Source: an uncultured Carboxylicivirga sp. (GTDB taxonomy: Bacteria; Bacteroidota; Bacteroidia; Bacteroidales; Marinilabiliaceae). From it: 64,000 bases of DNA. The stretch is taken from NCBI GenBank assembly GCA_947503525.1, contig CANNEA010000001.1, positions 806,001 to 870,000 on the forward strand. The letters are read 5' to 3'. A model generated the notes under the pieces. The model was not told the origin of the DNA, ran no database searches, and worked only from the letters and a program-made list of their open reading frames with translations. The position numbers were made by a program, and so were the translations under genes. Positions 32,076-62,963 of the stretch are shown piece after piece (positions within the stretch are counted from its first letter, which is position 1; every line of letters starts with the position of its first letter).

Positions 32076-32202
32076 AATATGATGATTTGATGAAAAAATT
32101 TGGTCAAGATTAAATTCTTTTCAATATTTGCAACAAAAGATGCCAATGGCATAAATAGTTTCAAGTATTGAATTATATTTATTTCATAAATCTAATATAC
32201 GA

Positions 32203-32484: not shown

Positions 32485-32489
32485 CAGCT

Positions 32490-35027: not shown

Positions 35028-35178
35028 ACCTGTTCATTCTAAGAAGGCTTTATTTTATAAAGATCAGAAAATCAAGTGAATGTAAATATGAATATATGTT
35101 TGCATTAAAACCATTGGCTAATAAATAGTGGCTAATGGTCAGCTAAACAGATTGTTAATTAATACTAAACTATATTAT
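35028..35178. promoter_or_regulatory. Gap before mobilization genes, possible oriT
   Basis: A 151-bp AT-rich gap directly upstream of the mobilization genes. It holds a direct repeat TGGCTAAT at 35115-35122 and 35129-35136, framed by ACCATT and ATGGT. Transfer origins often lie just upstream of relaxase operons and carry such small repeats, so this is a candidate oriT, but no known nick sequence is recognised. Confidence 0.25.
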
Positions 35179-35772: not shown

Positions 35773-35774
35773 TT

Positions 35775-37184: not shown

Positions 37185-37188
37185 TATT

Positions 37189-39373: not shown

Positions 39374-39383
39374 GAGAATAGTT

Positions 39384-42300
39384 ATGCCTTCAAATTTCAC
39401 TTTCCTTTCCGACGAATTTCCCATTCTGGCCAACCTGGCTGAATCGGCTGAATACAACGTGTATGCCGATCCGGTAACCGCACTATTTAAGTTAAGGCAG
39501 TTTGGTGAGACCTTTGTGCATATCCTATTTGATGAGCATGGCATGGAATTGCCAAGAGAGGCGACTTTCCATAATTGCCTGAAGGAACTGGAATATGATG
39601 GAATGTTACCGGGTAGAGTTAAGGACTTGTTATTTGCCATCAAGAGCAAAGGTAATGATGCTGTGCATGGCAGCAAAGGAACAATAGAGGATGCGAAAAC
39701 CATTTTGTTCTCAGCTTTTAAGATTGCCAAATGGTTATGTGAATGTTATTCTGTAAAAGCGATAGATCTATCGGATGTAAAGTTTAAGCCTCCGCTTGAG
39801 TTTGATGCTAAAAAGGCATTGGCCGAGTTAGAAAGCAGTTATAAAGAGCTGGAAGAGAAGTTTAAAAAACTTCAATCAGAACGAACAGCTGAAGGCATAT
39901 CTGAAGAACGTGCCAAAGTTATTGATGAACGCAAGAAGAAAGCCACAGCAAAAATTGAAATGTCGGAGGCTGAAACACGAGAGTTGATTGATGCTCAATT
40001 GCAACAAGCCGGCTGGGAAGTAAATACCAATGAACTCAATTTTAAAACGCATAAAACACTTCCTCAAAGGGGGAAAAATATGGCCATTGCCGAATGGCGG
40101 GTAGGAAATAAATGGGCTGACTATGCCCTGTTTATCGGAGCCGAGTTATACGGTATTGTTGAAGCAAAGAAGTACTCTCAGGATATTTCAACCAACCTTC
40201 GACAGTCAAAAATATATGCAGAACTGGCTGATGCAAAAAGTGGAGCAACGCTTTTAGGAAGTTGGGGTAATTATAAAGTACCATTCCTGTTTTCAACCAA
40301 TGGGCGTCCATTTTTAGAGCAGATTAAAACCAAGAGTGGCATCTGGTTCCTTGATGTTCGCCAGGAGCTGAATAGGGCCAAATCGTTAAAGGCCTGGTAT
40401 TCACCTGAGGGACTGATAAAACTGATGGAGCAGGACACTCAAACGGCCAATAATAAATTAAAAAATACAGAGCTCGACTTCCTGCAAAGCAAAAGTGGTT
40501 TGGGTTTACGCGATTACCAAATCAAAGCCATCAAGGCGGTTGAAAATACTTTGGTAAATAATCCTGAACAACATAGGGCACTATTAGCAATGGCTACCGG
40601 TACCGGTAAAACGCGTACCATAATGGGTTTGTGTTACCGCTTAATTCAAACCAACCGATTTAAGCGCATTCTGTTCCTGGTCGATCGAAGTCTATTGGGT
40701 ACACAGGCCTTCGATACCTTTAACGATACCAAAGTGGTTGACTTGAATACTTTTGCCGAAATATATGAAGTAAAAGGGCTGAAAGACATTCAGCCGGATA
40801 AAGATACACGCATCCATTTTGCCACTGTGCAAGGCATGGTCAAGCGTTTATTTTACTCTGATGAGGATAAATCGGTACCAACGGTTGATGCTTACGACTG
40901 CATCATCATTGACGAAGCACACAGGGGTTATTTATTGGATAAAGAAATTAATGAAGATGATCTGAGCTTTAAAGATCAACGTGACTATGTGAGTAAGTAC
41001 CGCATGGTATTGGATTATTTCGATGCCTTTGCAGTTGGGTTAACCGCAACACCGGCCTTGCATACCACTGAAATATTTGGTAAACCGGTATTTACATACT
41101 CCTATCGCGAGGCCGTGATAGATGGCTACTTAATTGATCATGATCCGCCTTTTATTATCAAGACCGAACTTAGCGAAGAGGGCATTGTTTGGAAAAAGGG
41201 TGAAAAGCCCAAAGCCTACGACAAGGAGAATAATCAGATTGTAGAGCTCTCAGAACTGGATGATGAACTGGCCATTGAAGTGGCTAACTTCAACAAACTG
41301 GTGATTACTGAAAACTTCAACCGTACAGTTATTGCAGAGCTGGTGAATCATCTGGATCCTGAAAGTGACGAGAAGACACTGATATTCGCTGCTACTGATG
41401 AGCATGCCGATAGGGTGGTGGAATACCTGAAAGATGCGTTTTCAGAGATTGGTTTAGAACTAACGGATAATGCCATCCAAAAGATTACCGGACAATCCTA
41501 CGATCCAGAAGAACAGGTAAAGCATTATAAAAACGAAAGACAACCCAATATAGCCGTAACTGTTGATTTGCTAACCACCGGGATTGATGTGCCGCAAATA
41601 TGTAACCTGGTATTTTTGCGTCGTGTGAAGTCACGTATTCTGTATGAACAGATGCTTGGGCGTGCTACCCGTCGTTGTGATGATATTGACAAGGAGCAGT
41701 TCCGTATATATGATGCGGTTCGTTTATATGAAGGCTTACAGGATTATACGCAGATGAAACCTGTTGTGCCAAACCCGAAAACAAGTTTCAAACAACTGGT
41801 GGATGAATTTGAGCATATTGATAATGATGAACGCGCCAAGGTGCAGGTTGAACAGCTGTTAGCTAAGTTTCAACGTAAGCGCAAACGGCTTACCGATGAT
41901 AAAAAAGAACAATTCGAATATCATACACAAGGAAAAACACCAGAAGAGTTTAGCGAATATTTAAAAGGTATAAACAATAAGGCTGGTAGTAAGGAACTAG
42001 AAAAGCTGGATGGGTTATGGCGCTTTCTGGATGAATTAAAACCCACTCCTCGCATGCAAATGGTGTCGGATCATAAAGACACATTTAGAGGTATTGAGCG
42101 AGGTTATGGAAAAGCTCATAAACCGGAAGATTACCTCCAGAGTTTTAAAGTTTTTATAGAAGAAAACATTAATAAGATAGCTGCACTTAAGATAGTATGT
42201 ACACGACCCAAAGAGCTTGATCGTGAGAGTTTGAAAAGCTTGAAGATAGAGTTGGATGCTGCAGGTTTTAATGCCATTACATTAAACACGGCCTGGCGTG

Positions 42301-42620
42301 ATGCTAAAAATGAAGATATTGCTGCAGACATTATCTCATATATTCGCACGCTGGCTGTAGGAAGTGCATTGGTAAGTCATAAAGAACGTATCAAACGTGC
42401 GGTTGATAAAGTACGTGCGATGCAACAATGGAATACTATGCAGAACAAATGGATAGATCGCTTTGAGAAACAATTGATGCAAGAGACCATATTGCAAAAG
42501 AAAGATTTAAATGCGGATCCATTTAGCAGTAAGGGTGGTTTTGAAAAAATCAATAAGCTCTTCAGTAATCAATTGGAGACAATAATTGAGGTCATTAATG
42601 ATGAACTATATACAGCGTAA
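39384..42620 (+). CDS. hsdR: Type I restriction enzyme R subunit
   Basis: A 1078-residue restriction and translocation subunit, from the ATG at 39384 (a TTG at 39360 overlaps the upstream gene and is not needed). It starts with a DUF4145-like helical region (MPSNFTFLSDEFPILANLAESAE), then the nuclease domain with the Asp and Glu-x-Lys pair in KWADYALFIGAELYGIVEAKKY. A DEAD-box translocase follows: Walker A ATGTGKT at 404-410, DEAH at 510-513, GLTATPA, and a C-terminal helicase part with TTGIDVPQICNLVFLRR. The C-terminus resembles the EcoEI R type. It cuts unmodified DNA once HsdS recognises a site. Unusually, two genes sit between it and hsdM. Confidence 0.93.
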   Translation: MPSNFTFLSDEFPILANLAESAEYNVYADPVTALFKLRQFGETFVHILFDEHGMELPREATFHNCLKELEYDGMLPGRVKDLLFAIKSKGNDAVHGSKGTIEDAKTILFSAFKIAKWLCECYSVKAIDLSDVKFKPPLEFDAKKALAELESSYKELEEKFKKLQSERTAEGISEERAKVIDERKKKATAKIEMSEAETRELIDAQLQQAGWEVNTNELNFKTHKTLPQRGKNMAIAEWRVGNKWADYALFIGAELYGIVEAKKYSQDISTNLRQSKIYAELADAKSGATLLGSWGNYKVPFLFSTNGRPFLEQIKTKSGIWFLDVRQELNRAKSLKAWYSPEGLIKLMEQDTQTANNKLKNTELDFLQSKSGLGLRDYQIKAIKAVENTLVNNPEQHRALLAMATGTGKTRTIMGLCYRLIQTNRFKRILFLVDRSLLGTQAFDTFNDTKVVDLNTFAEIYEVKGLKDIQPDKDTRIHFATVQGMVKRLFYSDEDKSVPTVDAYDCIIIDEAHRGYLLDKEINEDDLSFKDQRDYVSKYRMVLDYFDAFAVGLTATPALHTTEIFGKPVFTYSYREAVIDGYLIDHDPPFIIKTELSEEGIVWKKGEKPKAYDKENNQIVELSELDDELAIEVANFNKLVITENFNRTVIAELVNHLDPESDEKTLIFAATDEHADRVVEYLKDAFSEIGLELTDNAIQKITGQSYDPEEQVKHYKNERQPNIAVTVDLLTTGIDVPQICNLVFLRRVKSRILYEQMLGRATRRCDDIDKEQFRIYDAVRLYEGLQDYTQMKPVVPNPKTSFKQLVDEFEHIDNDERAKVQVEQLLAKFQRKRKRLTDDKKEQFEYHTQGKTPEEFSEYLKGINNKAGSKELEKLDGLWRFLDELKPTPRMQMVSDHKDTFRGIERGYGKAHKPEDYLQSFKVFIEENINKIAALKIVCTRPKELDRESLKSLKIELDAAGFNAITLNTAWRDAKNEDIAADIISYIRTLAVGSALVSHKERIKRAVDKVRAMQQWNTMQNKWIDRFEKQLMQETILQKKDLNADPFSSKGGFEKINKLFSNQLETIIEVINDELYTA

Positions 42621-43417: not shown

Positions 43418-44377
43418 ATGAGTATAAAACAACAACTGCATGCATTACTCGGCAAACAAAGTTCCTCTGACCGTAACGAGTTGGTGAAGCGGATGCGATT
43501 TCACCAAAGCTGGTGGCGGGCTTTTGTTTTGGCCGAAGATGAAGGCTCACACCCTATGCCACAAAAGAAAGGCGAAAGCATTGGGTCATCTATAAATAAG
43601 GGAGATTTGAGTCATTCAAATTTCCTGAGTGAAAATGCCATTAAGGCAGCTGAAGAAACGCTTAACGATAGAGACAGAAGCTCGGATAAGGGCCTGATTA
43701 AGGAAGACCGTCTCTTTAATAACCTCTTATCGAGTCAACCTTTGTGCTTCAATTTTTTTGGAGAACTGAAATATAATTTACCATTGGCCACCCTATTGCT
43801 AAAGCAGTTTTATCCTGATATAGTTGAAGTAACAAGTGTTCTTTTTGAATATGCCCCTAATGCTGCCCAAAACAATGACAATTCGGCTCATGATATTGCC
43901 ATAGAGTTTACCGGACCAGATAATAAAAAAGGCTTGATTGGTTTGGAATGTAAATACACCGAACCCTTTTCGCCACGAGAGTACGATAAACCTGAATATG
44001 GGGAGATATACGAGCAATCTAAAGCTTTTACTGCACCATACAAGGAATGTATTAAAAGTCATTACAATCAGCTTTTCAGAAACCAGCTTATCGTAGAGTC
44101 TGCGTTAATCAATAAGCGTTACGATATGGTTTATGCCGGGCTGTTTTGTTACGAAGACGATAAGAATGCTCTGACTAAGGGACTTGCTTTTCAATCCATG
44201 CTAAAAGATGGTGAAAAGCGTTTTCAGATCATCACATTTAAAGATTTTATTGAATCTTTGCAGCGCCTGAACCTAAGCTGGGAACAACGAGAATGGACCA
44301 TGTTATTGTGGGCACGTTATTGTGCAACACAACTAAGCGATGAGGTTAAGTCAAAGATTAATATTGAAGAAAAATAA
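43418..44377 (+). CDS. PD-(D/E)XK nuclease, PGN_0703-like
   Basis: A 319-residue protein with a nuclease core: Asp159 in AHDIAIEF and Glu177-x-Lys179 in LIGLECKYTE. The sequence resembles the PGN_0703 family of putative restriction endonucleases from memory. There is no signal peptide or membrane segment. It sits between hsdR and hsdM in the same direction, so it could be an added nuclease using the same methylation protection, or a passenger. No methylase of its own is next to it. Whether it cuts DNA is inference from the motif. Confidence 0.7.
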   Translation: MSIKQQLHALLGKQSSSDRNELVKRMRFHQSWWRAFVLAEDEGSHPMPQKKGESIGSSINKGDLSHSNFLSENAIKAAEETLNDRDRSSDKGLIKEDRLFNNLLSSQPLCFNFFGELKYNLPLATLLLKQFYPDIVEVTSVLFEYAPNAAQNNDNSAHDIAIEFTGPDNKKGLIGLECKYTEPFSPREYDKPEYGEIYEQSKAFTAPYKECIKSHYNQLFRNQLIVESALINKRYDMVYAGLFCYEDDKNALTKGLAFQSMLKDGEKRFQIITFKDFIESLQRLNLSWEQREWTMLLWARYCATQLSDEVKSKINIEEK

Positions 44378-49378: not shown

Positions 49379-49879
49379 GTGAAGTCAATTATAAACATAG
49401 AACTTTTTGAAGAAGACGAGAAAGTGAACTTCTATACACTTCGCTTCGAAGGTGATGAAACTGAGGTTGATAAATTCTTTGATCAGTTCCCAGAAGGTTG
49501 TCCGTATGATGAAGACATTGATATTATTATTAAATGGTTGGATGAAATTGGTGAACGAGGGGCGCTTGAAAGGTATTTTCGACCAGAAGCAAAAAGACAT
49601 GATAATGTTTGGGCAATTCCGATTGAAACAGCTAACTTAAGGTTATATGTTATACGCCTCTCTGATCAAATAGTACTTCTTGGTAATGGAGGTATTAAAA
49701 CAACAAGAACTTATAATGAAGACCCTATACTCAACTCACATGTAGAACTTTTACAAACTATAGATGGTTTTATAAGAAACAGAGTTGCTAAACAAGAAAT
49801 AACTGTCTATCAAAAACAGTTGTTTGGAGATTTAAAATTCTATCTGTCACAACAGAACGATAAGAATGAAGAAAAATAA
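49379..49879 (+). CDS. HigB/RelE-like toxin
   Basis: A 166-residue protein starting at GTG 49379; no ATG near the start is in frame. The core, GERGALERYFRPEAKRHDNVWAIPIE, LRLYVIRLSDQIVLLGNGGIKT and a final helical tail, matches RelE/HigB-like toxins of the phage-derived Gp49-like kind. Such toxins cut mRNA on ribosomes. The following gene encodes an XRE-type protein and overlaps it by 14 nt, the typical toxin-first HigBA order. It is longer than ordinary HigB (about 100 residues), owing to extra N- and C-terminal segments. Confidence 0.72.
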   Translation: MKSIINIELFEEDEKVNFYTLRFEGDETEVDKFFDQFPEGCPYDEDIDIIIKWLDEIGERGALERYFRPEAKRHDNVWAIPIETANLRLYVIRLSDQIVLLGNGGIKTTRTYNEDPILNSHVELLQTIDGFIRNRVAKQEITVYQKQLFGDLKFYLSQQNDKNEEK

Positions 49880-50273
49880 TAGATTACAAGAAAGAAGGAA
49901 GAAGATATCAAAAGATCTAGAGCGGTTTGTGGAACAATCTTTCGATATTGTTGATCGCATCCATTTTATTTTGAAAGAAAAAGGGATGGAGCAAAAGGAC
50001 CTTGCAAAAGCTTTGGGTAAAACTGAAAGTGAAATAAGCAAGTGGATGACTGGAACACACAATTTTACTATAAAGACAGTTTCTAGAATTGAAGCGGTAC
50101 TTGAAGAATCTGTTTTGCAAACAGTAAAGGAATGTAGTGGAGAGTCAGAAACTAGAAAGTACGAAATATCTTCAGATGGATTTGAATTCCAGCTTTCTAA
50201 GTCAAAGTCTCTTATTCCTAAACATTTTCAGTTTCAAATTTCTAGTGATTGCGAGCCTCAATACTATGCATAA
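49866..50273 (+). CDS. HigA-like antitoxin (XRE family)
   Basis: A 135-residue protein with an XRE helix-turn-helix at about 30-85: IHFILKEKGMEQKDLAKALGKTESEISKWM followed by NFTIKTVSRIEAVL. It overlaps the toxin gene by 14 nt and would bind the operon promoter and neutralise the toxin. The C-terminal 50 residues (GESETRKYEISSD onward) are not typical of minimal HigA and may be the part recognised by the downstream chaperone-like protein, as in toxin-antitoxin-chaperone systems. That last point is inference. Confidence 0.75.
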   Translation: MKKNNRLQERRKKISKDLERFVEQSFDIVDRIHFILKEKGMEQKDLAKALGKTESEISKWMTGTHNFTIKTVSRIEAVLEESVLQTVKECSGESETRKYEISSDGFEFQLSKSKSLIPKHFQFQISSDCEPQYYA

Positions 50274-50277
50274 GTAA

Positions 50278-50733
50278 ATGGAGAAAACAAAAAAAATATC
50301 TGCCGCGATTCAGCTTATCAAAGAGACAGGTTTTTCTTATAAACCATTGCCTCAAATCGAGGATTCTAGTAAATTAAATTCTTTACTTAGGTTCGGAATT
50401 GGATTTGAATTTGATATTGAGTCAGAAAATGAAAAATTTGTTTTAAATACTAATATTGAGTATAAGATTGAGGGGTACGAAGAAAGTTATTTAGAATTTT
50501 CAAATTCAATTGCTTTCAAAGTTATTAATTTAAAAGATGCTCTAAAGGAAGAGGATGGTAAAATTGTTGAAATTGATGATGAATTAATTATTTCACTAGT
50601 TGCTGTCTGTATTGGAACTTCAAGAGGGTTGTTAGCCGCAAATACTAAAGGGCTTGATTGGGCCAATTATCCTTTACCAATTTTGGATCCGAAACAAGTT
50701 GTGAAAGAAATGAATGTAAAGTCCAAAGAGTAA
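50278..50733 (+). CDS. SecB-like protein of a toxin-antitoxin-chaperone operon
   Basis: A 151-residue protein encoded 4 bp after the HigA-like gene. It has alternating beta strands (FGIGFEFDIESENEKFVLNTNIEYKI) followed by a helix with TSRGLLAANTKGLDWANY and the ending PLPILDPKQVV. SecB-like proteins share a beta-sheet body, a C-terminal helix with an Arg-Gly or Arg-Glu turn, and a final proline-rich strand. From memory, similar SecB-like proteins follow HigBA pairs in Bacteroidota, and a mycobacterial HigBA-SecB operon is the known precedent. So this may be a chaperone that folds the antitoxin. The assignment rests on context and weak pattern. Confidence 0.5.
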   Translation: MEKTKKISAAIQLIKETGFSYKPLPQIEDSSKLNSLLRFGIGFEFDIESENEKFVLNTNIEYKIEGYEESYLEFSNSIAFKVINLKDALKEEDGKIVEIDDELIISLVAVCIGTSRGLLAANTKGLDWANYPLPILDPKQVVKEMNVKSKE

Positions 50734-50823: not shown

Positions 50824-53631
50824 ATGACAATGTACAAACTAGATCTTTTAAAGTTTAATTCACTGTTCAATGAATATCTTGACTATTGTAAACGCAGTGC
50901 TTGGCTAACATACCGTGAGGGTTATAAATTTCGTTTTGGTAGGTGGGTAAACGAGCGAGTAGATTTTGATAATCAATCCAATGATGATATTTTACAGATT
51001 TGCATTGAATCTCAGAATCAAATATATGATAGTTCTGAGGAAAAAGGAATTAATTTTATTAAAGCTAACCAGCAATATCACGATGATTTTATTACCATTA
51101 AAGATATAATAACCTTAAGAAAATTATATAATGGTGAAGGCATTGAAAATCGTGAACTGACAGAATCGCCCCTTACCTTTCCTAAGTTAAGTATCTGGTC
51201 CGGTATAATGATGCCAGGTAAATATCACATATATGCAAACGAGGAGTTGACAAAGGGATTGGCATTATTGTTTAATTTAAAGGATGATCATGCAAAGTCA
51301 GGATTTAAAGCCTTTCAATTAGCTAATCAATGCCTTTCTTCTCTTTATCAGGGTATTTCTACACATTTTGCCAAAGAGGAAGAAGTCATTGCAAGATTGG
51401 TTTTCGGAGAAGAAAGTTCTTTAAGGGAAGTAGATAAAGAATGGATAGCGCAGGATTTTATTCTATATATTAATCGTAAAGTAATATCACCGATAAATTC
51501 TTTTTATTGGGTCAATCAAGGAGCAAATTATCAAATTGAAAAAGAAAAATCCTGCATTGCTGCATCAACCAATAATATTTATCACCATTCCAAATTAAAG
51601 GACCTTCAAGAAGGTGATATTATTGTTCATTATGCTGAACGAAACATACTAGCAACATCTGTTGTGGTGAAAGAGTTTGAGATCACAAATAGGCCATATG
51701 ATAATTCTGAGGAAAGTAGTCTTGTTGTCGGAGTTAAATATACAGAATTAGAGACACCTGTCTCACGGGATACAATCAGAGAACTATTTAAAGGGAAAAA
51801 GGAAATGCTTCCTAAGAAACATAGCCCACTCAATTATAAAGCTGAAGTTGTTCAGTCATATTGTTTGGATTTTAATGTTGAATCTTATAAGCTATTATTT
51901 AAGGGCATGGAAAAAACGATAAACTATTGGGCAGGAGGGTTTGGAGTTAGCGACGGTGATAAACAGAGATTAAGTGACTTTATTAAAAATAATTATTGGG
52001 CTGCTATAGATTATTCAGAAAAAGATGAATCACCACAAGCTAAGAAAGCAAGAAGCAATTTCAATCAGATAAAGGTTGATGATTATTTTTTGATTAAGGG
52101 TTATGGTGGAAAACATGATCTAAATGTTCATTATATAGGCAAAGTAATATCAAAGGATACTGAAAGTTACACATTGAATTTTGAAAAACTTGACATGCCA
52201 CTTTATAAAGGCAAAGCACCAAGAGGTAATGGTGCAGGAGTTTGGTTTGATACATTATTACAAGTACAACGACAAGATATTATTGATATGCTCTTTAATA
52301 ACACTATACAGATAAAGGATGAATCACAAAAATCTTCACCTCTAAATAGGATACTATACGGCCCTCCGGGAACTGGCAAAACATATACATTAAGTAATAA
52401 ATATTTCAATCAATTTACATCTAGGCGATCAACTATATCTAGAGAGGAGTTTTTGAAAAATTTCTTAATAGATAAATCATGGTGGGAAGTAATTGCTTTG
52501 GTATTATTGGATATAGGTAAGGCTAAAGTCAGTGAGATTTTCAACCACGAATTATTACAATTAAAAATTGAGTTGTCTAATGCCAGTCAAGTACGGCCTA
52601 TAATATGGAGTCAGCTGCAAGGACATACAGTAGAAAGTTGTGAGTTTGTTGGAGTCAAAAAGAAAGCTAGTCCTTTAATATTTAATAAAACTTCAGATTC
52701 ATATTGGGAAATAGTTAATGAAGAAATGGAGCAGCAAGTTCCAGATTTATTAGACTATCAAAAGCAAATAAATGATTTTAGTGAACAGCCTGATTTAGAG
52801 ATTAAGCGATATGAGTTTATCACTTTTCATCAATCATTCTCTTACGAGGATTTTATTGAAGGCATTAAGCCAGTAATGTCTGAAGAAGAGGATGGTCTTA
52901 TTTACGAAATTCAAGATGGTTTATTTAAAAAGATAGCTAATAGGGCCAGAAAAGATCCAGATCAAGACTATGCCATTTTTATTGATGAAATAAATCGTGG
53001 CAACGTATCACAAATCTTTGGTGAGTTGATTACGCTTATTGAGGAAGATAAAAGAGAAGGCAAAGACAATGAGTTGTCTGTTTTATTACCCTATTCAAAA
53101 ACCGAATTTAAAGTTCCGCCTAACCTCCATATTATCGGCACAATGAACACCGCTGATCGAAGTGTGGAGGCATTGGATACTGCGCTTCGTCGTCGCTTCT
53201 CCTTTGAAGAAATAATGCCGCAACCAGAACTCATAAAAGAACATGGTGCTTCAGAAGGTAAGATTGAAGGTATTGATTTAGTTGATCTCCTGCATACCAT
53301 AAATAAGCGTATTGAAGTACTAGTAGATCGCGATCATACCATTGGGCACAGCTACTTTATGCAAGCCGAGACCATGGAAGATTTGACGCTGGTGTTTAAG
53401 GATAAAATCATTCCATTGATGCAGGAATACTTCTATGGTGACTATGGCAAGATTGGCCTGGTATTGGGCAAAGGTTTTGTGGAAAAGAAAAATGGAGACA
53501 TTGGCTTTGCAGATCTTGAGGGCTACGGTGATACGGAACACTATAAAAATGATCGTTGGGAACTGAAACCTATAGATGAGGATTTTCCATTGCAAGAAGC
53601 TATTCAGTCCTTAATGGCTATAAAAAAATAA
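50824..53631 (+). CDS. mcrB: McrB-type GTPase with EVE-like N-terminal segments
   Basis: A 935-residue AAA+ GTPase of McrBC-type restriction. Walker A is GPPGTGKT at 513-520, Walker [10 protein letters not shown] has Asp721-Glu722, and the GTP-specificity motif MNTADRS is at 774-780 with ALRRRFSFE as the sensor. The long N-terminus has two PUA/EVE-like stretches: YWVNQGANY to GDIIVHY (about 225-345) and [11 protein letters not shown] to [11 protein letters not shown] (about 355-490), which in other proteins recognise modified bases. The domain order therefore suggests sensing of modified DNA followed by GTP-driven translocation and cutting by McrC. The start may be ATG 50824 or 50830. Confidence 0.88.
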
Positions 53632-53633
53632 TA

Positions 53634-54875
53634 TTGATTGGTTATAAAACCATACAAGTTTTTGAGCACGAGCGCTTATTAATTGGCAACAAAGGTTTCA
53701 GGCAAAAGCACCTGGATGCCTTATTGAAGCTGAATGAGCTCCACGATTTTCAGTATTTCGATCCCATTTATGGTGGATTGAATTTCAAGCAATATGTGGG
53801 TGTCATTCAAGTAGATGGTTTGTGCATTGAAATTCTACCCAAAGCTGATAAGCATGGCAACAAGGCGCAGTGGCAATCTGTATTGATACAAATGTTGAAG
53901 GCTTGTAGTCGACTAAAGCCCGAAAGTGCAGGTGGCGCCAACGTAAAGCGGCAGCATTTAAACTTATTGGAAGTCTACTTTGAATTATTCCTTAATGAAG
54001 TAGATGGTTTAATTCGTCGTGGCTTAGTAAAACAATACCGTAAGCAAACCGGTCAGGTTAAAGCCTTAAAAGGTAAATTGGAGTTTGCTGGCCAGATACG
54101 TCATAACCTCGTTCACCAGGAACGCTTTTATACCTCTCATCAGGTGTATGATCAGGATCATTTATTACATCAGGTACTAAATATGGCATTAGAAATAGTT
54201 GGTCATTTCACCAAAGGAACAAGTCTGTACGATAAATGCAAGCGCGTTCAACTGGAATTTCCGGAGGTCACATCCAAGCTGGTCACTTCTGAGCTATTGG
54301 AGCGCATTAAATTGAATCGAAAAACAGCACCTTATTCATATCCTCTGGAAATTGCAAGGTTAATCATCTTGAACTATTCACCAGATATTAGCAGCGGTCA
54401 GGAACGCATGTTATCCCTATTGTTTGATATGAACCAGTTGTGGGAAGAGTATGTGCTGGTAATGCTCAAAAAAGCGCTTAAAAGCTCTCCTTTTGCAGTA
54501 ACAGGACAGGAGACTAAACCCTTCTGGAATTACAATTACCTACAACCGGATATTGTCATTCGAAATAAGGAAAGCAATGAGACTTACATCATCGATACCA
54601 AATGGAAACAACCTGGTTCATCCTCAGCTTCCGTTGCCGATCTACGACAGATGTATGCCTACAACCGCTTTTGGAATGCCAACAAGGTAATGTTGTTATA
54701 TCCCGGAGAAAACCGAAACACTGAATTCAAAGACTTTCTGAATGCGGGCGAGCAACATAGTTGTAAAATGGGTTTTGTGAGTGTGGTGGATGAGGATGGC
54801 AGCTTGAATAGTGATGTTGGGGATAGTGTGTTAAGGCAAATGGAAATAACAACAGAAACTTATCAGATAAACTGA
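53634..54875 (+). CDS. mcrC: McrC-type endonuclease subunit
   Basis: A 413-residue partner of McrB, starting 2 bp after its stop at a TTG (no ATG is available there). The N-terminal part is DUF2357/McrC-like helical and beta (AQWQSVLIQMLKACSRLKPE). The nuclease core is PD at 305-306 in LQPDIVIRNKES, then YIIDTKWK with Asp321-x-Lys323, a PD-(D/E)XK catalytic site. McrC cuts DNA when stimulated by McrB oligomers. The next gene begins 4 bp downstream, so the operon continues beyond mcrBC. Confidence 0.9.
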   Translation: MIGYKTIQVFEHERLLIGNKGFRQKHLDALLKLNELHDFQYFDPIYGGLNFKQYVGVIQVDGLCIEILPKADKHGNKAQWQSVLIQMLKACSRLKPESAGGANVKRQHLNLLEVYFELFLNEVDGLIRRGLVKQYRKQTGQVKALKGKLEFAGQIRHNLVHQERFYTSHQVYDQDHLLHQVLNMALEIVGHFTKGTSLYDKCKRVQLEFPEVTSKLVTSELLERIKLNRKTAPYSYPLEIARLIILNYSPDISSGQERMLSLLFDMNQLWEEYVLVMLKKALKSSPFAVTGQETKPFWNYNYLQPDIVIRNKESNETYIIDTKWKQPGSSSASVADLRQMYAYNRFWNANKVMLLYPGENRNTEFKDFLNAGEQHSCKMGFVSVVDEDGSLNSDVGDSVLRQMEITTETYQIN

Positions 54876-54879
54876 CATT

Positions 54880-55302
54880 ATGCAACTCTCATTCACTCTT
54901 AAATCCCTCGGAAAAAAGAAAGCCTATATCAATAGTGTTGGTATTGAAATCGATATCAATTCTAAAACCACCATAAAAGAACTTTTGCTGCAGGTTGTTT
55001 CTCAACAGGTTCATGTTTTTAACAAGCGCAAAAATGATCCAAACCTTCTAGTTTATTTGAGTGAAAATACGCTTAATCATCAAATTGATTCAGGTCAGGT
55101 AAAGTTTAACGAGCAGTACAATGACACATTGGCCAACGAAGAAAAAGCTAAAGAGAATGTACTATTAGCCTTTGAAGATGGATTGATTGCTTTATTCATT
55201 AACGATGAGCAGGCAGAGGATATCAATCAAAGCATTTTAATAAAAGAAAACGATTCAATAACCTTCATTAGATTAACCTTTTTAGCCGGTAGTATCTGGT
55301 AA
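54880..55302 (+). CDS. Small protein paired with the DUF4132 gene, possible beta-grasp fold
   Basis: A 140-residue soluble protein of unknown function. It opens with two predicted strands (MQLSFTLKSLGKKKAYINS, GIEIDINSK) and a helix (TTIKELLLQVVSQQVHVF), an order like ubiquitin-like beta-grasp proteins, and ends FIRLTFLAGSIW. The ending is similar to small proteins I recall beside DUF4132/DUF5724 giants, often finishing in LAG or LVGG. Spacing is tight on both sides (4 bp after mcrC, 13 bp before the giant), so it should be made together with both. Beta-grasp is a guess from strand order; no conjugation motif such as a terminal GG is present. Confidence 0.5.
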   Translation: MQLSFTLKSLGKKKAYINSVGIEIDINSKTTIKELLLQVVSQQVHVFNKRKNDPNLLVYLSENTLNHQIDSGQVKFNEQYNDTLANEEKAKENVLLAFEDGLIALFINDEQAEDINQSILIKENDSITFIRLTFLAGSIW

Positions 55303-55315
55303 TATCCCTAATAAC

Positions 55316-58300
55316 ATGAACAATCCAAAAGACTATTTAAAATCCAAAGAAAAAGCTGACCACATCAAAGTGTTAACAGCTCGGTTAAGAAAAGCAAAGA
55401 ATCGCATTGGTGGCCTAGTGGGTTTGGTACTTGGTAATAGGAAAGAGCTATCAAAAGATAACGCCTTTATTGGCCTTGTCTTATTGAATAAGATAACGGA
55501 ATTATCAGATAACAATTCAAATTACTATTGGGACAGAGAAATAGAGCAAAATTCAAAACGTTTCAATTGTCTGAAAGAAATATCGAATGGTCAAGAATTT
55601 TGGAATTCCAAACGTTATCCACTTTTAGAGTTCCTTTTTGGACAAAGGATGGCTGCCTATGTGAAGAAAGCTTGGGACATGATACCTACATTAATGTATC
55701 AAGAAGGATATGCACGAAGGTCCTTTCGAGGTTCTGGACTGGATGCTATCTATTTCACACGCCAGCTTAATTTTATTATTAAGCTCATTCATGAATATGA
55801 TCATGAACTAACTCTGGAGGAATATGCCATACATAGCAATACTTTGCCAACAGATAGTTTTTCAATTGTTTTTGCTTCTGCAATAGATTCGGGTGATCAA
55901 GAGATTACTCAGCTATTTTTAGATGCAATTTATGGAAGACATGAGCTAGCTAAGCCAAGTCGAGCAATAATCAAAGCCATGTTGCTTTCACATCAATCTG
56001 AATGTTGGGTAGCTGTAGAAAAGCTATTGCTAAGTGCGCAAAGGCAAGAAGGTTTACGCCAAACCATATTGGAATGTCTGGATGAAACATCGTTGGGGGC
56101 AATGAAGCATATGATTAAGGTAATAATCGAGCATAAGCTGTCTCGTTTTTCATCTGTAGTAAGAGCCATTGATACCTGGGCTGGTTTTGGTTGGGAAGCA
56201 GAAAAGGAAACAACGGTGAGACGTTTTCTTGAGTATGCAGATTTATATTTATCTGATCCAACGAAAATTAAAGAGGCAATAAAAAGTAAAGATAATGCAG
56301 AAGTATACATGGCTTTGTGGGCTCAAGGGGTATACGATATTAATGGTTGCCCACCTCTTTTAGATGAAGTACTGAAAGGTAATAAAGAAAAGGTATTACT
56401 TGCCTTGTACTTTATAAAGCAGATTGGTATTTCTTCCACATCCATAAAGTATGGTTCATTATATCTTGATTATGATGATCCTTTAATAGTTTGTCAGGCT
56501 GTCAGTTTGGTTAATGTTCAGGTTTTTATTGATATGTTATCAAATAAGGATAAGAAACGCTTGTTTGATATATTGGAAGCTCAATTGGAGAAGCTACCTA
56601 AGAAGGTTAGTGTTTCAAAACCAAAAGTGTTTTCTTGGTTAACTTTCCGATACAGTAAGGAGCAAGTACTAGACTTGATGATTAACCTTTTAAATCTGAA
56701 AAGAGATGGAGATATTGATAAGATATTACCTCACTTCGAAAGTTTATCAGTAAATCATCGCGAAAGAGTGACAGGAAAAATATTACCGGGATACACTGGC
56801 TATAGTTATAAGGCGGATGAGAACAAACCACCTTTGAATAAACGCAAAAGAGATTTTTCTTTTTCTATACTTAAGGATCGTTCCGAAACAGTTAAAAGTG
56901 CTGCCATTCGTGCGCTAATGGATGCCAGTTTGAAAGCTAGTGAGATGGAAGTGTTTGAGGGTTTGCTGACTCGCAAAGCTGCAGATTTTCGCAGGTCGGT
57001 TATCCAGTTAATAATTAAGCAGGGAGAACATACCATTAGGGAAAGCGCCAGTCGTCTTATATTGGCGAAAAATGAGGAGCAACGCTTGGCTGGTCTTGAT
57101 CTTTTACTTTGGCTTAAAAAGAATAGTTCAGTCAGCACTACCTGGTTAAAATCAGTGGTAAATGAATATGCATCAAAGTCAACTATTGGATCAAAGGAGG
57201 AGGTTGTTCTGAAAGGATTACAGGATGGATTTAATAAACGTGAAGAATTTACAGAAAAGAATGGATTCGGCCTATATGAACCTCAAAATATAAGTGATGA
57301 GATTACCTTGGAAGAGGTAAAAGATAAACGTTATGAAGAAATAAGGCAAACAAATTCGTACTGTTTGAGCAGGCCCGTTGATAGAATAAATGAGGCTTTA
57401 GCTGAGCTAGGGCGTCTGGTAGTTGAAAATAAGGATTACGAATACACGTTTGAGGATTGGGAAGACAAGAAAACGTCCTGCTTGATGGGAAATCAATTCA
57501 GTCGTCTCAAACGAAATATAGAAGGAATGACTTCTGAAGAGAAGTTCTGCAATTACCCACTCTATGAAACCTGGAGGAAATGGTATTTGGACTCAGGACT
57601 TACAAGTAGAGACATCCTGATAATTAATTTAAATGCTAAAACAGAACTAGATGGAAAGGGCGATCAAGCTTTTTCTTCATTAAATAAAAAGTGGGCGCAA
57701 TTTGTTTTTATACCGAAGGTTCCAAAGATTGGCGATTATTACTGGCAAAATCCAATTTTTGAGATATTGTCTGCAATAGAAGAAAGGTACCCATGTGATG
57801 ATAGAGTTGATTTTCTTTCAGCCTTGGTTTATGAGTGTTTTAATTCAATTAGTCGGAGTGAAATTTCCACCTATAAGGAGGTGAAAACGCATTGGCAGTC
57901 GGAACCGAGGACTTGGAGGGACCAGACGATTATACAAAACATTTGGAATAGATACCAATTGTATAAGCAAGAAATGTCAGTAAACCAATTTTCAGCCTAC
58001 TGGAATCTTGCGCACTGGTATTTTCTAACAAGTACAAAAAACATAAAAAAATCTAAATCCTATCTTCCTCAATTGTATGATTATGCAAGAGCCTATAATG
58101 ATAAACTAATTAATATTGATCAAGTATACTGGCGAATTCTGCATTCAGATGCCATTGAAGAACTGACCAAGAATCTCATTGGTGAAAAATACGATATTAA
58201 AAAAGAATTCGATTTTCTTAATGAATTAACAGAGAAATGTCGTGACAGAATTTTGGAAATAGAATTGATAAGGGGCGACTCATCTACTCCGCTTACACAT

Positions 58301-60328
58301 TTGGCTCAAAGTATAAAACGTTTGTATGGAATTGAATATTTTACTCAAATACTTAAAGCATTGGGTAAAGATACCCTCCATCGCGGATATATCTATAGTT
58401 ACGGCAATCACGAATATAACCGAAAGGAGATCTTAAGTACCCTTCTAAAAAACTGCTATCCGTCAAAAAGCTGTTCTCAAAAGCAATTTAATGAATTGAT
58501 TGGTCAGGCCAAATTTACCGATAAGCGTTTATGTGAGGCCGCAACTTATGCTCCGCAATGGTTACCATACGTGGCCGACTTCTTAGAGTGGAAGGATATG
58601 GAGTCTGCCGTTTGGTGGCTACATGCTCATACCAATGGAAGACATGATACACAGACAGAATCAGAGATTTCTAAATACTCATCTGTTGAAATAACAGCAT
58701 TCAAAGATGGAGCTGTGGATATCAATTGGTTTAAGGAAACTTATAAATCACTTAAGAAAGATAAGTGGGACAAGTTATATAAGGCAGCCAAATACATATC
58801 GGAAGGTAGTGGACATTCAAGAGGATTACTTTATGCTGATGTTATTCTGGGTAACAAGAAAATCACTGAAATAACAGAGCGAATTAAAGATAAACGTAAT
58901 CAGGATTACCTGCGTGTTTATGGTGTGATACCTTTAAGTAAAGCGAATCCGACAAAGGATGTACTTCGACGCTATCAATTTCTGCAACAGTTTAAGAAAG
59001 AGAGTAAGCAATTTGGGTCTCAGCGTCAGGCTAGTGAAGGAATTGCTGTAAAAATTGCAATGGAGAATCTGGCTCGTACAGCTGGTTACCCTGATCCGAT
59101 TCGTCTACAATGGGCTATGGAAACCAAGGAAGCTCAGGAAATAATGCAAAAAGCCGGAACCATTCAGTTGGCTGACACACAAATCAACCTTGAGATTGAT
59201 GACCAAGGAAAATCTTCAATTATTGCCATTAAGGATGGTAAGAAATTGAAATCAATTCCTGCCAAATACAAAAAAGAGCAAGCCTTGGTTAAACTCAAGG
59301 AGTATAATAAAACGCTTCGAGAACAATATAGAAGAACGCGTAAAAGCCTGGAGAATGCCATGGTTAATGGTGATGTTTTTTCCTCTGAGGAAATTGAAAC
59401 ACTGACACAGCATCCAGTTGTTGCTCCAATGATTAATAAGCTTGTTCTTGCTTCAAATGGTGATGTTGGTTTCTGGAAGGACAATCAACTTCTAAAACCT
59501 AATGGAGAATTGACGAGTATGGAGAATGAAATCAGACTGGCGCACTGTGTGGATTTATATGAATCCAAAACATGGGTTTCCTTTCAGAAATACTGCTTCG
59601 ATAGCAAGTTGGTACAACCATTTAAACAAATATTCCGAGAACTGTATGTTCCTACAAGTGATGAATTAAAAGAAAAAGCTGTGTCACGTAGGTATGCAGG
59701 TCACCAGGTACAACCTAAGAAAACGGTTGCGCTTCTTAAAGGTCAACACTGGACAGTTGATTATGAAGAAGGCCTTCAGAAAGTGAATCACAAACAAAAT
59801 ACAATTGCCAGAATGTTTGCCATGGCAGATTGGTTTTCACCAGCCGATACTGAAGCTCCAACACTGGAAACAGTAGAGTTCTTTAGCCGGAAAGATGGTA
59901 AGCGTCTGCCTTTTGAAAAGGTTGATAAGCTGGTTTTTTCTGAAACAATGCGTGACCTAGACCTAGTTGTTAGTGTTGCGCATGTTGGTGATGTTGATCC
60001 TGAAGCAAGTCAGTCTTCCATTGAACTACGTTCTGCCATAGTTAAAGAAACATGTCGTTTATTTAAGTTGAATAATGTTATTTTATCAGAGAATCATGCC
60101 AAGATTCAGGGCGATCTAGGTGAGTATTCGGTACATCTGGGAAGTGGTATTTGCCACAAGGTTGCCAGTTCTTCACTCTCCATATTGCCAGTTCAATCTC
60201 AACACAGAGGTAGAATGTTTTTACCTTTTATCGATGATGATCCCAAAACGGCGGAAATACTATCAAAAGTATTAATGCTGGCGAAAGATAAAGAGATAAA
60301 AGATCCAACAATATTACAACAGCTTTAA
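55316..60328 (+). CDS. Giant DUF4132/DUF5724 protein
   Basis: A 1670-residue cytoplasmic protein with no signal peptide. The first 250 residues are helical, and the part from about 500 to 650 resembles HEAT repeats (SETVKSAAIRALMDASLKAS, RRSVIQLIIKQGEHTI, ESASRLILAKNEEQ). The last 270 residues match the DUF4132 type: RLAHCVDLYESKTW near 1405, QPFKQIFRELYVPT, and a glycine/aspartate-rich end with VHLGSG. Proteins of this kind are widespread with unknown function, some related to the MolR group. It is placed in one tight operon with mcrBC and the 140-residue protein, which suggests a role in a defence complex, perhaps as a scaffold. No nuclease motif is visible. Confidence 0.78.
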   Translation: MNNPKDYLKSKEKADHIKVLTARLRKAKNRIGGLVGLVLGNRKELSKDNAFIGLVLLNKITELSDNNSNYYWDREIEQNSKRFNCLKEISNGQEFWNSKRYPLLEFLFGQRMAAYVKKAWDMIPTLMYQEGYARRSFRGSGLDAIYFTRQLNFIIKLIHEYDHELTLEEYAIHSNTLPTDSFSIVFASAIDSGDQEITQLFLDAIYGRHELAKPSRAIIKAMLLSHQSECWVAVEKLLLSAQRQEGLRQTILECLDETSLGAMKHMIKVIIEHKLSRFSSVVRAIDTWAGFGWEAEKETTVRRFLEYADLYLSDPTKIKEAIKSKDNAEVYMALWAQGVYDINGCPPLLDEVLKGNKEKVLLALYFIKQIGISSTSIKYGSLYLDYDDPLIVCQAVSLVNVQVFIDMLSNKDKKRLFDILEAQLEKLPKKVSVSKPKVFSWLTFRYSKEQVLDLMINLLNLKRDGDIDKILPHFESLSVNHRERVTGKILPGYTGYSYKADENKPPLNKRKRDFSFSILKDRSETVKSAAIRALMDASLKASEMEVFEGLLTRKAADFRRSVIQLIIKQGEHTIRESASRLILAKNEEQRLAGLDLLLWLKKNSSVSTTWLKSVVNEYASKSTIGSKEEVVLKGLQDGFNKREEFTEKNGFGLYEPQNISDEITLEEVKDKRYEEIRQTNSYCLSRPVDRINEALAELGRLVVENKDYEYTFEDWEDKKTSCLMGNQFSRLKRNIEGMTSEEKFCNYPLYETWRKWYLDSGLTSRDILIINLNAKTELDGKGDQAFSSLNKKWAQFVFIPKVPKIGDYYWQNPIFEILSAIEERYPCDDRVDFLSALVYECFNSISRSEISTYKEVKTHWQSEPRTWRDQTIIQNIWNRYQLYKQEMSVNQFSAYWNLAHWYFLTSTKNIKKSKSYLPQLYDYARAYNDKLINIDQVYWRILHSDAIEELTKNLIGEKYDIKKEFDFLNELTEKCRDRILEIELIRGDSSTPLTHLAQSIKRLYGIEYFTQILKALGKDTLHRGYIYSYGNHEYNRKEILSTLLKNCYPSKSCSQKQFNELIGQAKFTDKRLCEAATYAPQWLPYVADFLEWKDMESAVWWLHAHTNGRHDTQTESEISKYSSVEITAFKDGAVDINWFKETYKSLKKDKWDKLYKAAKYISEGSGHSRGLLYADVILGNKKITEITERIKDKRNQDYLRVYGVIPLSKANPTKDVLRRYQFLQQFKKESKQFGSQRQASEGIAVKIAMENLARTAGYPDPIRLQWAMETKEAQEIMQKAGTIQLADTQINLEIDDQGKSSIIAIKDGKKLKSIPAKYKKEQALVKLKEYNKTLREQYRRTRKSLENAMVNGDVFSSEEIETLTQHPVVAPMINKLVLASNGDVGFWKDNQLLKPNGELTSMENEIRLAHCVDLYESKTWVSFQKYCFDSKLVQPFKQIFRELYVPTSDELKEKAVSRRYAGHQVQPKKTVALLKGQHWTVDYEEGLQKVNHKQNTIARMFAMADWFSPADTEAPTLETVEFFSRKDGKRLPFEKVDKLVFSETMRDLDLVVSVAHVGDVDPEASQSSIELRSAIVKETCRLFKLNNVILSENHAKIQGDLGEYSVHLGSGICHKVASSSLSILPVQSQHRGRMFLPFIDDDPKTAEILSKVLMLAKDKEIKDPTILQQL

Positions 60329-60337
60329 TATCGGTAT

Positions 60338-61636
60338 ATGTCGTTACAATTATCTCGCCAACAATATGTAGAGTACTGCTCTAATTGTTCTAGGAAGTCT
60401 TTCGATGGTCACATTGGATTAGTTTGTGGCTTATCAAATAAACAACCCGATTTTCAAAGTAATTGTTCTCATTATCTGCCAATTCATGATGATATGGAGG
60501 ATGTTAATGAACAATTAAAGCAACTGAAAACAAAGAAGAAAAAACGGAAAACGATTTGGGTTTTATTGTCGGTAAGCCTTGCGGCTATTATGCTTGTTTT
60601 TACTATCAAAGCAATCAATGCGGCATTAAAGAACAATGAATTATCTGCAGGATTTGAGAGAACTGCAGGCGACTTTTTTGAAGATAAAGACTATGATGGT
60701 GCGATATACTACTATGAGATATCAATAGATTATGATGATCAGAATACTTCTGCTACATACATGCTTGGTCGATGTTACGAGGAGTTGGAGAGCTATGAAA
60801 AGGCCATTAAGTATTATAGCGATGCCATATCCTTGGATTCAAAGTATGCCAAAGCTTTACTTTCAAGAGGTTATGCAAGGTATAAAATTGATGAATTCGA
60901 TAAAGCTATTGAAGATTATCTGAGATCATTAGAGCTAGAACCTAAAAATACTGCTGCATTAGGAAATGTTGGGAGTATTTATGAAGAGAAATGTGATTTT
61001 GAGCAGGCCAGAAAGTATTATTACGAAACACTAAAATATAATCCTGAACACTATGGAATTATGTCATCATTGGCTAGTTTGGAGTTTGATTTGGGAAATT
61101 ATGATGTAAGTATCGATCTTTGTTATAAAGTAATTGGTAATCTTGATTTTGGGAAGGATGCTCCTCATGGTACAATTGCATTAGCTTACCAGGCAACAAA
61201 TAAATACGATAGTGCATTAGTGCATTTGAATAAAGCATTAGAGTACGCCCCTGACAACGATCATTATTACAATAACAAAGGCTATTCCTTGTCTGTGCTA
61301 GGGAACGATATCGAGGCCATTCAGAATTATAATAGAGCTATTTCAATAGATTCATTAAATCCGAGTTACTTCTTAAATAGAGGTGATGCAAGGAATCACC
61401 TTCATCTCTATCATGAAGCCATTGAGGATTACAATCAAGCTATTTTGCTTTCAGAACTTTATGAGGGTTTTAATTGTAGCATTTGCTTTAATAATCGTGG
61501 TGCTGCCAAACATATGATAGGTGATAGTATTGGCTATAAAAGAGATCTTGCCATAGCAGATAGTTTAGGATATCCAGAATCATATAGTTCATGGTCTAAC
61601 TTAGGAGCTAAAGCAGATTTTTATAATGCAAAGTAA
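60338..61636 (+). CDS. Membrane TPR protein with N-terminal cysteine motif
   Basis: A 432-residue protein, last gene of the operon (9 bp after the giant). The N-terminus has four spaced cysteines, CSNCSRKSFDGHIGLVCG and a fourth in NCSHY, likely a zinc site of a kind common in Bacteroidota. One membrane helix follows (about 70-95, WVLLSVSLAAIMLVF). The rest is a run of TPR repeats, for example AIYYYEISIDYDDQ, SYEKAIKYYSDAISLDSKY and EFDKAIEDYLRSLELEP. It probably holds partner proteins at the membrane. Membership in the same operon makes it a candidate component or anchor of the McrBC/DUF4132 system. Confidence 0.82.
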   Translation: MSLQLSRQQYVEYCSNCSRKSFDGHIGLVCGLSNKQPDFQSNCSHYLPIHDDMEDVNEQLKQLKTKKKKRKTIWVLLSVSLAAIMLVFTIKAINAALKNNELSAGFERTAGDFFEDKDYDGAIYYYEISIDYDDQNTSATYMLGRCYEELESYEKAIKYYSDAISLDSKYAKALLSRGYARYKIDEFDKAIEDYLRSLELEPKNTAALGNVGSIYEEKCDFEQARKYYYETLKYNPEHYGIMSSLASLEFDLGNYDVSIDLCYKVIGNLDFGKDAPHGTIALAYQATNKYDSALVHLNKALEYAPDNDHYYNNKGYSLSVLGNDIEAIQNYNRAISIDSLNPSYFLNRGDARNHLHLYHEAIEDYNQAILLSELYEGFNCSICFNNRGAAKHMIGDSIGYKRDLAIADSLGYPESYSSWSNLGAKADFYNAK

Positions 61637-61741: not shown

Positions 61742-62905
61742 TCATCCTTTCACAACAGCCAAAGGTTCCAGCTCCACTTTTATTTTCACCAAATCAGTTT
61801 GATTGGCCATCACCATATCAATATCTTTATAAGCACCGGCTGCTTCGTCTAAATCCTTTCGATGACGGATGCCATGAATAATATCTTTATCATTGAGTTT
61901 CTTAATTTCAGCTTTAAGGTCTAACTCACGCCGGGCTTGCTTTCGGCCCATTACACGACCGGCACCATGCGAACAGGACTCAAAGCTTTCCGGATTTCCT
62001 AATCCTTCTACAATGTAGGATTTGGTTCCCTGTGAACCAGGAATAATTCCCATTTCACCCAAACGGGCTCTTGTGGCACCTTTTCTGTGCACTAACACAT
62101 TTTCGTTATAATGGTTTTCCCAGGCGGCATAGTTGTGGGCAATATTAATTAGCTCATCAAACTCTATCTTGCCTTTAAACACTTCCATAAAAGCATGCTG
62201 TACACGTTCCATCATTAATCGTCGGTTGGCAAAGGCAAAGTCAACACAGTAATTCATTTCATTGATATAAGCATGTGCTTCGTCAGTTTCAATAGGCAAG
62301 AAGGCCAAATCATGAGAAGCTGGTACTGTTGAATGCCAACGTTCATTTAATTGCTTCGCCTTTTTATTATAAAAATCGGCTACCTGTTTGCCTAGGTTTC
62401 GGCTACCCGAATGAATCATTACCCAAACATTACCATCCGAACCATGCTGGATTTCAATAAAATGGTTTCCTCCTCCTAATGAGCCAATTTGTTTTGTTGC
62501 TTTTACATAGTGTCGTTCTACAATATGAGGCAGTTCGTCAACTTGTGGCATACACTTTTCATCCTGTGCCTCCTTATGCCAGTTAAATCCAACAGGAATC
62601 GTTTTTCGGATACGCGACATGATTTGCTTTAAAGTATCCGAATCTGCATCCTCCAAATTGGTTCGCATGGCACACATTCCACAGCCAATATCCACACCAA
62701 CGGCATTGGGAATAATCACACCTTTGGTGGCTAATACACCACCAATGGGCATTCCATATCCTGAATGAGCATCGGGCATTAGTGCCACATGCTTATGTAC
62801 AAAAGGTAAGTTAGCTAAGTTTTTAGCCTGTGAAAGTGCATTTCCTTCAATGTCATCCAACCACATTTTAATGGGGCGGTTTTCTGATGATATAACTTGT
62901 TTCAT
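61742..62905 (-). CDS. rtcB: RNA-splicing ligase RtcB
   Basis: A 387-residue RtcB-family RNA ligase. The ATG at 62905 is preferred; the 17 residues before it lie in a hairpin and are not like RtcB. Motifs are DIGCG with Asp72 and Cys75 as Mn ligands, SLGGGNHFIEI with the His148 ligand, HSGSRN with His165, and CSHGAGR whose His313 should carry GMP. RtcB joins 2',3'-cyclic phosphate and 5'-OH ends in tRNA or damaged RNA. No archease gene is visible nearby. It lies 58 bp downstream of the slipin gene on the same strand, with a strong hairpin between them. Confidence 0.95.
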   Translation of the reverse strand: MKQVISSENRPIKMWLDDIEGNALSQAKNLANLPFVHKHVALMPDAHSGYGMPIGGVLATKGVIIPNAVGVDIGCGMCAMRTNLEDADSDTLKQIMSRIRKTIPVGFNWHKEAQDEKCMPQVDELPHIVERHYVKATKQIGSLGGGNHFIEIQHGSDGNVWVMIHSGSRNLGKQVADFYNKKAKQLNERWHSTVPASHDLAFLPIETDEAHAYINEMNYCVDFAFANRRLMMERVQHAFMEVFKGKIEFDELINIAHNYAAWENHYNENVLVHRKGATRARLGEMGIIPGSQGTKSYIVEGLGNPESFESCSHGAGRVMGRKQARRELDLKAEIKKLNDKDIIHGIRHRKDLDEAAGAYKDIDMVMANQTDLVKIKVELEPLAVVKG

Positions 62906-62921
62906 TTTCTTCTCGTTTATT

Positions 62922-62952
62922 ATGTAGGATGCAATCAACTTGCATCCTACAT
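62922..62952 (-). promoter_or_regulatory. Strong hairpin between slipin and rtcB
   Basis: A perfect 13-bp stem (62922-62934 with 62940-62952) around a 5-nt loop lies between the slipin stop and the rtcB start. It lacks a T-run, so rather than ending transcription it may limit read-through or protect one transcript. Confidence 0.6.
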
Positions 62953-62963
62953 TCAATTATCAT

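Follow-up and report, generated by a model that had tools for sequence, protein, structure and literature searches.

Introduction

The gene pair drA0165-drA0166 of Deinococcus radiodurans encodes a small protein, studied as SEP068184 (DR_A0165), and a DUF4132 neighbor. The available portion of PMC8533742 reports strong up-regulation of drA0165-drA0166 upon depletion of DdrO, and induction of DRA0166 by mitomycin C that depends on IrrE; the available portion of PMC9650054 reports that DR_A0165 is up under irradiation and H2O2 and that it binds Trx1 in a pull-down. Here we describe a homologous pair, encoding a 140-residue protein (small) and a 1670-residue protein (giant), that directly follows mcrBC in a 64,000-nucleotide stretch of DNA from an uncultured Carboxylicivirga sp. 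(contig CANNEA010000001.1; the whole stretch is hereafter called the window). A gene for a tetratricopeptide repeat (TPR) protein completes the run of five.

The window also resembles the described McrBC type IV systems, in that it holds a complete mcrB-mcrC with the hallmark motifs, and differs from them by the small gene downstream. The terms DUF4132, MolR and ubiquitin have no occurrence in the main text, as far as it was available, of the McrBC census paper PMC11090510, and among the matches listed from open-licence papers none describes mcrBC combined with the small-giant pair. We consider it reasonably probable that the window carries two separate modules in one operon: an mcrBC cassette, and an older stress pair that the cassette has captured.

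Results

To place the pair, we compared its surroundings across genomes. Relatives of the giant were found in 1/198 genomes of the order (the window's own), in 11/395 of the phylum and in 8 plasmid records, and in no phage record; the match spans most of the protein in 7 of the 11 and in 5 of the 8. From a scan of genome contigs with the giant, which yielded at least 533 relatives, we took the best 80; these and earlier loci gave 87 giant loci, once L018 and L020 (duplicates of L056 and L082) and L022 (no giant) had been dropped. By profile, and without an open reading frame (ORF) filter, the small gene lies at most 1.5 kb from the giant in 83 of the 87, on the same strand in all 83; it precedes the giant in 72 and follows it in 11. 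The pairing is also present in 30/30 additional loci of the Paenibacillus sp. BJ-4 genus, and its hosts include Bacteroidota, Deinococcus, relatives of Bacillus and Paenibacillus, and Methanobrevibacter. Among the four giants lacking the small gene, L075 and L078 reach a contig edge and L063 (Thorsellia) and L103 (Capnocytophaga, two giants) do not. At L022 (5489-6493), the small gene is retained beside a 147-residue giant remnant, apparently left by an internal deletion.

McrBC was not found beside the pair at these loci. Neither McrB nor McrC was found in the flanks of the 87 giant loci (BLASTP at expectation value E<=1e-4, and an McrC profile built from four sequences), where each side spans 9 kb or more in 66 loci and 4.5 kb or more in 73. 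At the level of whole genomes, McrC was found in 13/54 giant carriers, namely the window's own and 12 of the 53 others (among which L022 has the giant remnant only); the remaining 41/53 gave no McrC match. Conversely, McrC relatives occur in 34/395 genomes of the class, the window's own included, and the small gene was found in none of 33 other McrC loci (29 from the class search, 4 from giant genomes), read for ~1.2–1.5 kb downstream. A single, weak match to the window's TPR protein was found across the 87 loci, upstream of the pair in L030. Inspection by eye showed no same-strand neighbor within 100 bp of the pair to be shared between genera. The 87 giant loci without McrBC and the 33 McrC loci without the small gene led us to reject a five-gene defense operon conserved across Bacteroidota. 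As judged from these neighborhoods, small and giant are an independent two-gene module.

An earlier note on the window, made from its letters alone, had suggested that the last three genes may be partners of McrBC in a candidate new five-gene anti-phage system. The counts above speak against that partnership: elsewhere the downstream genes lie mostly away from mcrBC, an outcome that the note itself had set as refuting its proposal, with one exception, the congeneric genome G1040. The partnership is spared outright rejection by the linkage of mcrBC and the pair, which recurs in G1040; beyond this one genus the system finds no support.

Within the window's genus, McrC is present in 2/14 genomes and the other 12 have neither McrC nor giant; those two are also the sole genomes with giant matches among 119 relatives. 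G1040 has the order mcrB-mcrC-(227-residue gene)-small-giant, with identities to the window of 90% for McrC, 74% for small and 89% for giant. Similarity of its giant ends at residue 669, at the start of a ~100-bp sequence that recurs at nine places in the assembly, eight of them beginning with base 1 of a contig, so that the G1040 giant appears to be broken by an inserted element or by an assembly break; McrC is intact, and no second giant match is listed for this genome. The G1040 orthologue of the TPR protein (83% identity) adjoins RtcB, on a contig other than that of the pair, and is preceded by five ORFs without relatives in the window. Together, an interrupted giant beside an intact McrC, and a TPR gene on another contig, argue against strict dependence.

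By family membership and motifs, the window's mcrBC is a canonical type IV restriction system, as the earlier note had recognized: McrB matches Pfam AAA_5 (1.3e-14) and NCBIfam McrB (9.5e-37, under that model's cut-off) and has a Walker A motif (GPPGTGKT) at 513 and MNTAD at 774, and McrC matches PF10117 (3.7e-62) with a nuclease motif, PD...IIDTK, at 305. When the McrB of a congener (L174 4537-7029) is aligned with that of the window, only residues 506-935 align, at 82.8% identity; the N-terminal ~505 residues of the window McrB are without similarity to the N-terminal half of the congener McrB. The differing N-terminal halves in the two congeners are probably a swapped specificity part, going by the alignment.

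We next turned to the Deinococcus pair. The DdrO motif listed in PMC8533742 at -83 of drA0165 has a perfect match at the same distance in our D. radiodurans locus (L024 9035-9054), which identifies the pair there as drA0165-drA0166. DdrO boxes scoring 13-14/15 precede the pair in 4/4 Deinococcus loci; shuffles that keep base content only reach a score of 14 in 0.1% and 13 in 1.6% of cases. The window's small protein is homologous to DR_A0165, and the D. radiodurans pair has homologous small and giant genes in the same order and with the same domains. It differs from that of the window in its DdrO box, in the absence of any McrBC annotated within 10 kb, and in a small protein that ends in GG (GSIW in the window). 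Thus by homology a small protein that matches no Pfam family, and that was published as Deinococcus-only, belongs to one wider pair family.

Other lineages hold the pair as an apparently settled part of the chromosome. Giant matches were found in 60/75 genomes of the genus of Paenibacillus sp. BJ-4, and in 17 Chryseobacterium loci the pair occupies one site with common neighbors that include nusB. This distribution is unlike that of accessory defense genes and suggests a resident character. Upstream of the pair, 16 of the 30 Paenibacillus loci reach 11/14 at most for a LexA-like box, as shuffles often do (background drawn from 19 of the 30 loci, base content kept only); the other 14 are taken up in the Discussion. 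Instead of the LexA-like box, many Paenibacillus loci among L157-L172 share a GGYACATRTGTACG-type palindrome situated at roughly -85 to -141.

The small protein, which ends ...IRLTFLAGSIW, has no match in Pfam at E<=0.1, nor in NCBIfam or PADLOC at E<=0.01. Family searches with 34 relatives gave scattered matches only, from one or two members each, and an order-level search gave two weak matches besides the protein itself. An AlphaFold2 model built from a 34-row alignment of hand-picked rows (mean predicted local distance difference test score, pLDDT, 76; predicted TM score 0.66) runs beta-beta-alpha-beta-beta, as the ubiquitin fold does, and adds helical insertions. In Foldseek its top match was MoaD (5mpo, E 8.2e-3), followed by SAMP1 and ubiquitins; the 50 matches listed were mostly ubiquitin-like, the others including PI3K chains and staphylococcal Eap. 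VIA-align returned Z scores of 8.5 for a U11 small nuclear ribonucleoprotein chain, 8.1 for MoaD and 6.6 for ubiquitin, where by the tool's own warning a Z under 8 may reflect a common arrangement. The protein is thus predicted to have a ubiquitin/beta-grasp fold; for DR_A0165, an independent MoaD/SAMP1-like prediction is given in the available portion of PMC9650054.

The tail of the protein sets it apart from these folds. A Gly near the C-terminus is invariant in the 34 aligned members (L072 has Cys), and it is followed by a three-residue tail in 106 of the 114 small proteins whose tail could be parsed. In all, 101/115 finish with G-x-x-W, that is, with a C-terminal Trp, and Deinococcus proteins (4/4) finish with ...LAGG; these counts include the 30 related Paenibacillus loci, and L093/L143 and L100/L150 are each counted twice. 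Compared with MoaD, SAMP1 and ubiquitin, the window protein shares the predicted fold and differs in a helical insertion, in a C-terminal Trp in place of GG, and in lacking an E1 partner gene within the window. A terminal-diglycine modifier was rejected for the window protein as encoded, given its GSIW C-terminus.

The giant consists of DUF5724 (residues 58-1268, E=0), DUF4132 (1308-1479, 6.4e-46) and DUF7737 (1570-1670, 5.5e-34). All three domains are present in its D. radiodurans and Bacteroides relatives, and identity to the D. radiodurans protein is 31%. For modeling, 40 of 46 alignment rows were used, leaving out the wrong rows L038, L077 and L087 and the near-redundant L055, L085 and L096. 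The model of residues 940-1670 from these 40 sequences (pLDDT 85) has a helical start whose best match is importin, at a Z of 7.9 that falls below the advised trust level for helical repeats; its alpha/beta domains have no clear match in solved-structure or viral fold libraries, and a family outside those libraries may still match. Sequence searches of solved structures with the small and giant alignments gave nothing credible, and neither protein matches a PADLOC-DB profile at E<=0.01. E. coli YehI, a 1210-residue protein encoded beside yehL/M/P/Q, resembles the giant in its Pfam DUF4132 domain and differs from it in lacking DUF5724 and DUF7737 and in showing no significant BLASTP similarity. 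We rejected the giant as a member of the YehI family, because similarity is not full-length and DUF4132 alone is shared. The small-protein profile found nothing in the YehI region (best E 0.098).

The five genes of the window lie on the plus strand (Table 1), with intergenic gaps of 2, 4, 13 and 9 bp, exactly as the earlier note had read them. Seven terminator-like sites were found between 49000 and 62000, against 7.3 expected from shuffles, and none of the seven falls inside a gap between the five genes. The genes are thus compatible with one transcription unit, also part of that note, and the interval from mcrB to the TPR gene is likely to be one.

Table 1. Coordinates of the features of the window discussed in the text.
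Feature	Coordinates	Strand	Remarks
HsdR	39360..42620		type I restriction
REase-ARP family nuclease	43418..44377		PD-(D/E)XK; between HsdR and HsdM
PDC-M64B, HTH, PDC-M64C genes	49379..50733	+	PADLOC; Pfam HTH_3; end 90 bp 5' of mcrB
mcrB	50824..53631	+	935 aa
mcrC	53634..54875	+	413 aa; TTG start
small gene	54880..55302	+	140 aa
giant gene	55316..60328	+	1670 aa; DUF5724, DUF4132, DUF7737
TPR gene	60338..61636	+	432 aa
RtcB RNA ligase	61742..62956	-	PF01139 9.1e-120; convergent to TPR gene

The surroundings are those of a defense island, as had been proposed: type I restriction genes for HsdR, HsdM and HsdS are present, together with the REase-ARP nuclease. A HigBA label given to genes of this neighborhood found no support. 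The proteins at 49379-49879 and 50278-50733 have no Pfam match at E<=0.1; they match B (4.8e-54) and C (3.3e-12) of the PADLOC candidate system PDC-M64 and flank an HTH_3 protein. This trio is a candidate defense module, separate from the small-giant pair. Further upstream, helix-turn-helix, toprim-domain, DUF5712 and ParA-type genes lie at 31104-37935, and by their gene content they are likely to be a mobile element adjoining the island.

At the other end of the operon, the TPR protein has Pfam TPR repeats and, as read from its sequence, a Cys-rich N-terminus and one hydrophobic stretch at ~73-90; against PADLOC its repeats match PDC-M71B (6e-5) and, more weakly, one other model. Beyond it, the window (61742-64000) and L181 (2465-8305) hold genes for RtcB, a slipin-like Band_7 protein, a WYL regulator, a second RtcB and an RF-1-domain protein, which we take to be PrfH-like. 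Three other congeners keep these genes and have different genes beyond RtcB. A kept RNA-repair locus with differing genes beyond it points to a variable site beside a resident locus, and the TPR gene is probably a bystander of that site.

Discussion

Our preferred account, an mcrBC cassette carrying a captured older pair, would work as follows. The first module is McrBC, which, going by its families, would carry out GTP-driven cleavage of modified DNA. The second would be an old and widespread pair, in which a ubiquitin-fold protein is most likely a non-covalent subunit of the giant, itself in part an alpha-solenoid, with domains DUF4132 and DUF7737. In Deinococcus at least, DNA damage or oxidative stress would induce the pair, and in several other lineages it would be a resident of the chromosome; in the window's genus it would have been captured behind mcrBC, at the variable site adjoining the RtcB RNA-repair locus. 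In that position the pair may aid the cell through the stress that follows restriction of invading DNA, and it would not be needed to make McrBC. We infer the physical complex of small and giant, the damage-tolerance role and any benefit to McrBC.

Several observations weigh against this account. Firstly, the available portion of PMC9650054 reports that a DR_A0165 mutant is more resistant to H2O2, with milder gamma and ultraviolet phenotypes, which makes a simple protective role doubtful, and its available co-immunoprecipitation text makes no mention of DR_A0166. Secondly, two giants with flanks, those of Thorsellia and Capnocytophaga, have no small gene, and no Foldseek match to the small-protein model reaches E<=0.001. 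Thirdly, a LexA-like box scoring 13/14 precedes the pair in only 14/30 Paenibacillus loci, all of them from one clade of close relatives. Fourthly, in each of the two congeners with McrBC or the pair the two stand linked, as accidental neighbors need not be. Finally, PMC9650054, in its available portion, calls DR_A0165 Deinococcus-only and states that no RDRM/DdrO motif precedes it; the homologues outside Deinococcus and the DdrO boxes found here contradict both statements.

The rivals can be weighed against the same evidence. The pair might belong to a network of RNA repair and RNA damage (RtcB, RlaP, RNA ligase, slipin) and not to DNA damage, which we regard as unlikely. Genes for RtcB, RlaP, RNA ligase or PNKP, several of these labels checked with Pfam, do occur in the flanks of 19/88 pair loci, and in a STRING analysis of its co-immunoprecipitation partners DR_A0165 clusters with Rsr (PMC9650054, available portion). 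The 19 are mostly related Flavobacterium loci, with a Cytophagales genome and Paenibacillus among the others, and the count, made without a matched control, amounts to a lead; the 17 Chryseobacterium loci contribute none of the 19. Moreover, three congeners have the RtcB locus without the pair, so that the adjacency seen in the window belongs to the site.

A dedicated anti-phage system, in which small and giant act as effectors or regulators of McrBC, for instance by sensing cuts and mounting a protective or suicidal response, would fit the tight operon gaps, the defense-island setting and the linkage of mcrBC and the pair in the two genus members that have either, both being absent from the other 12. 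It is distinctly unlikely nonetheless, since no giant locus has McrBC in its flanks (0/87), no other McrC locus has the small gene (0/33), 41 of the 53 other giant genomes lack an McrC match, and in G1040 a 227-residue gene separates mcrC from small and the giant is interrupted.

We also give little credence to the small protein as a covalent ubiquitin-like modifier or sulfur carrier with the giant as its ligase or acceptor. The predicted ubiquitin/MoaD fold, the invariant Gly near the C-terminus of the 34 aligned members and the LAGG ending of 4/4 Deinococcus proteins would suit such a role; in 101/115 members, however, the G-x-x-W ending leaves no terminal diglycine without processing. The giant of Flavobacterium oncorhynchi has a ThiF-domain (E1-type) gene at 2.1 kb (L070 6244-7845), which likewise favors a modifier, and it is the sole one found in the 87 loci. 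The window holds no credible MoeB-like E1, and its Pfam-scanned genes include no E1, JAB or E2 family (JAB and E2 were sought in the window only). It is similarly improbable that McrBC has recruited the pair for ubiquitin-fold signaling, the giant reading nuclease-made breaks and the G-x-x-W tail switching on its DUF4132 and DUF7737 domains, although, if this were true, a restriction system would have gained its second arm from a general damage-response module.

The case cautions that a place in an operon within a defense island says little for the existence of a new defense system. A single pair family joins two separate Deinococcus studies, and the dispute over the DdrO box is settled in favor of PMC8533742. 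The pair also offers more lineages in which to test what DUF4132-type giants do.

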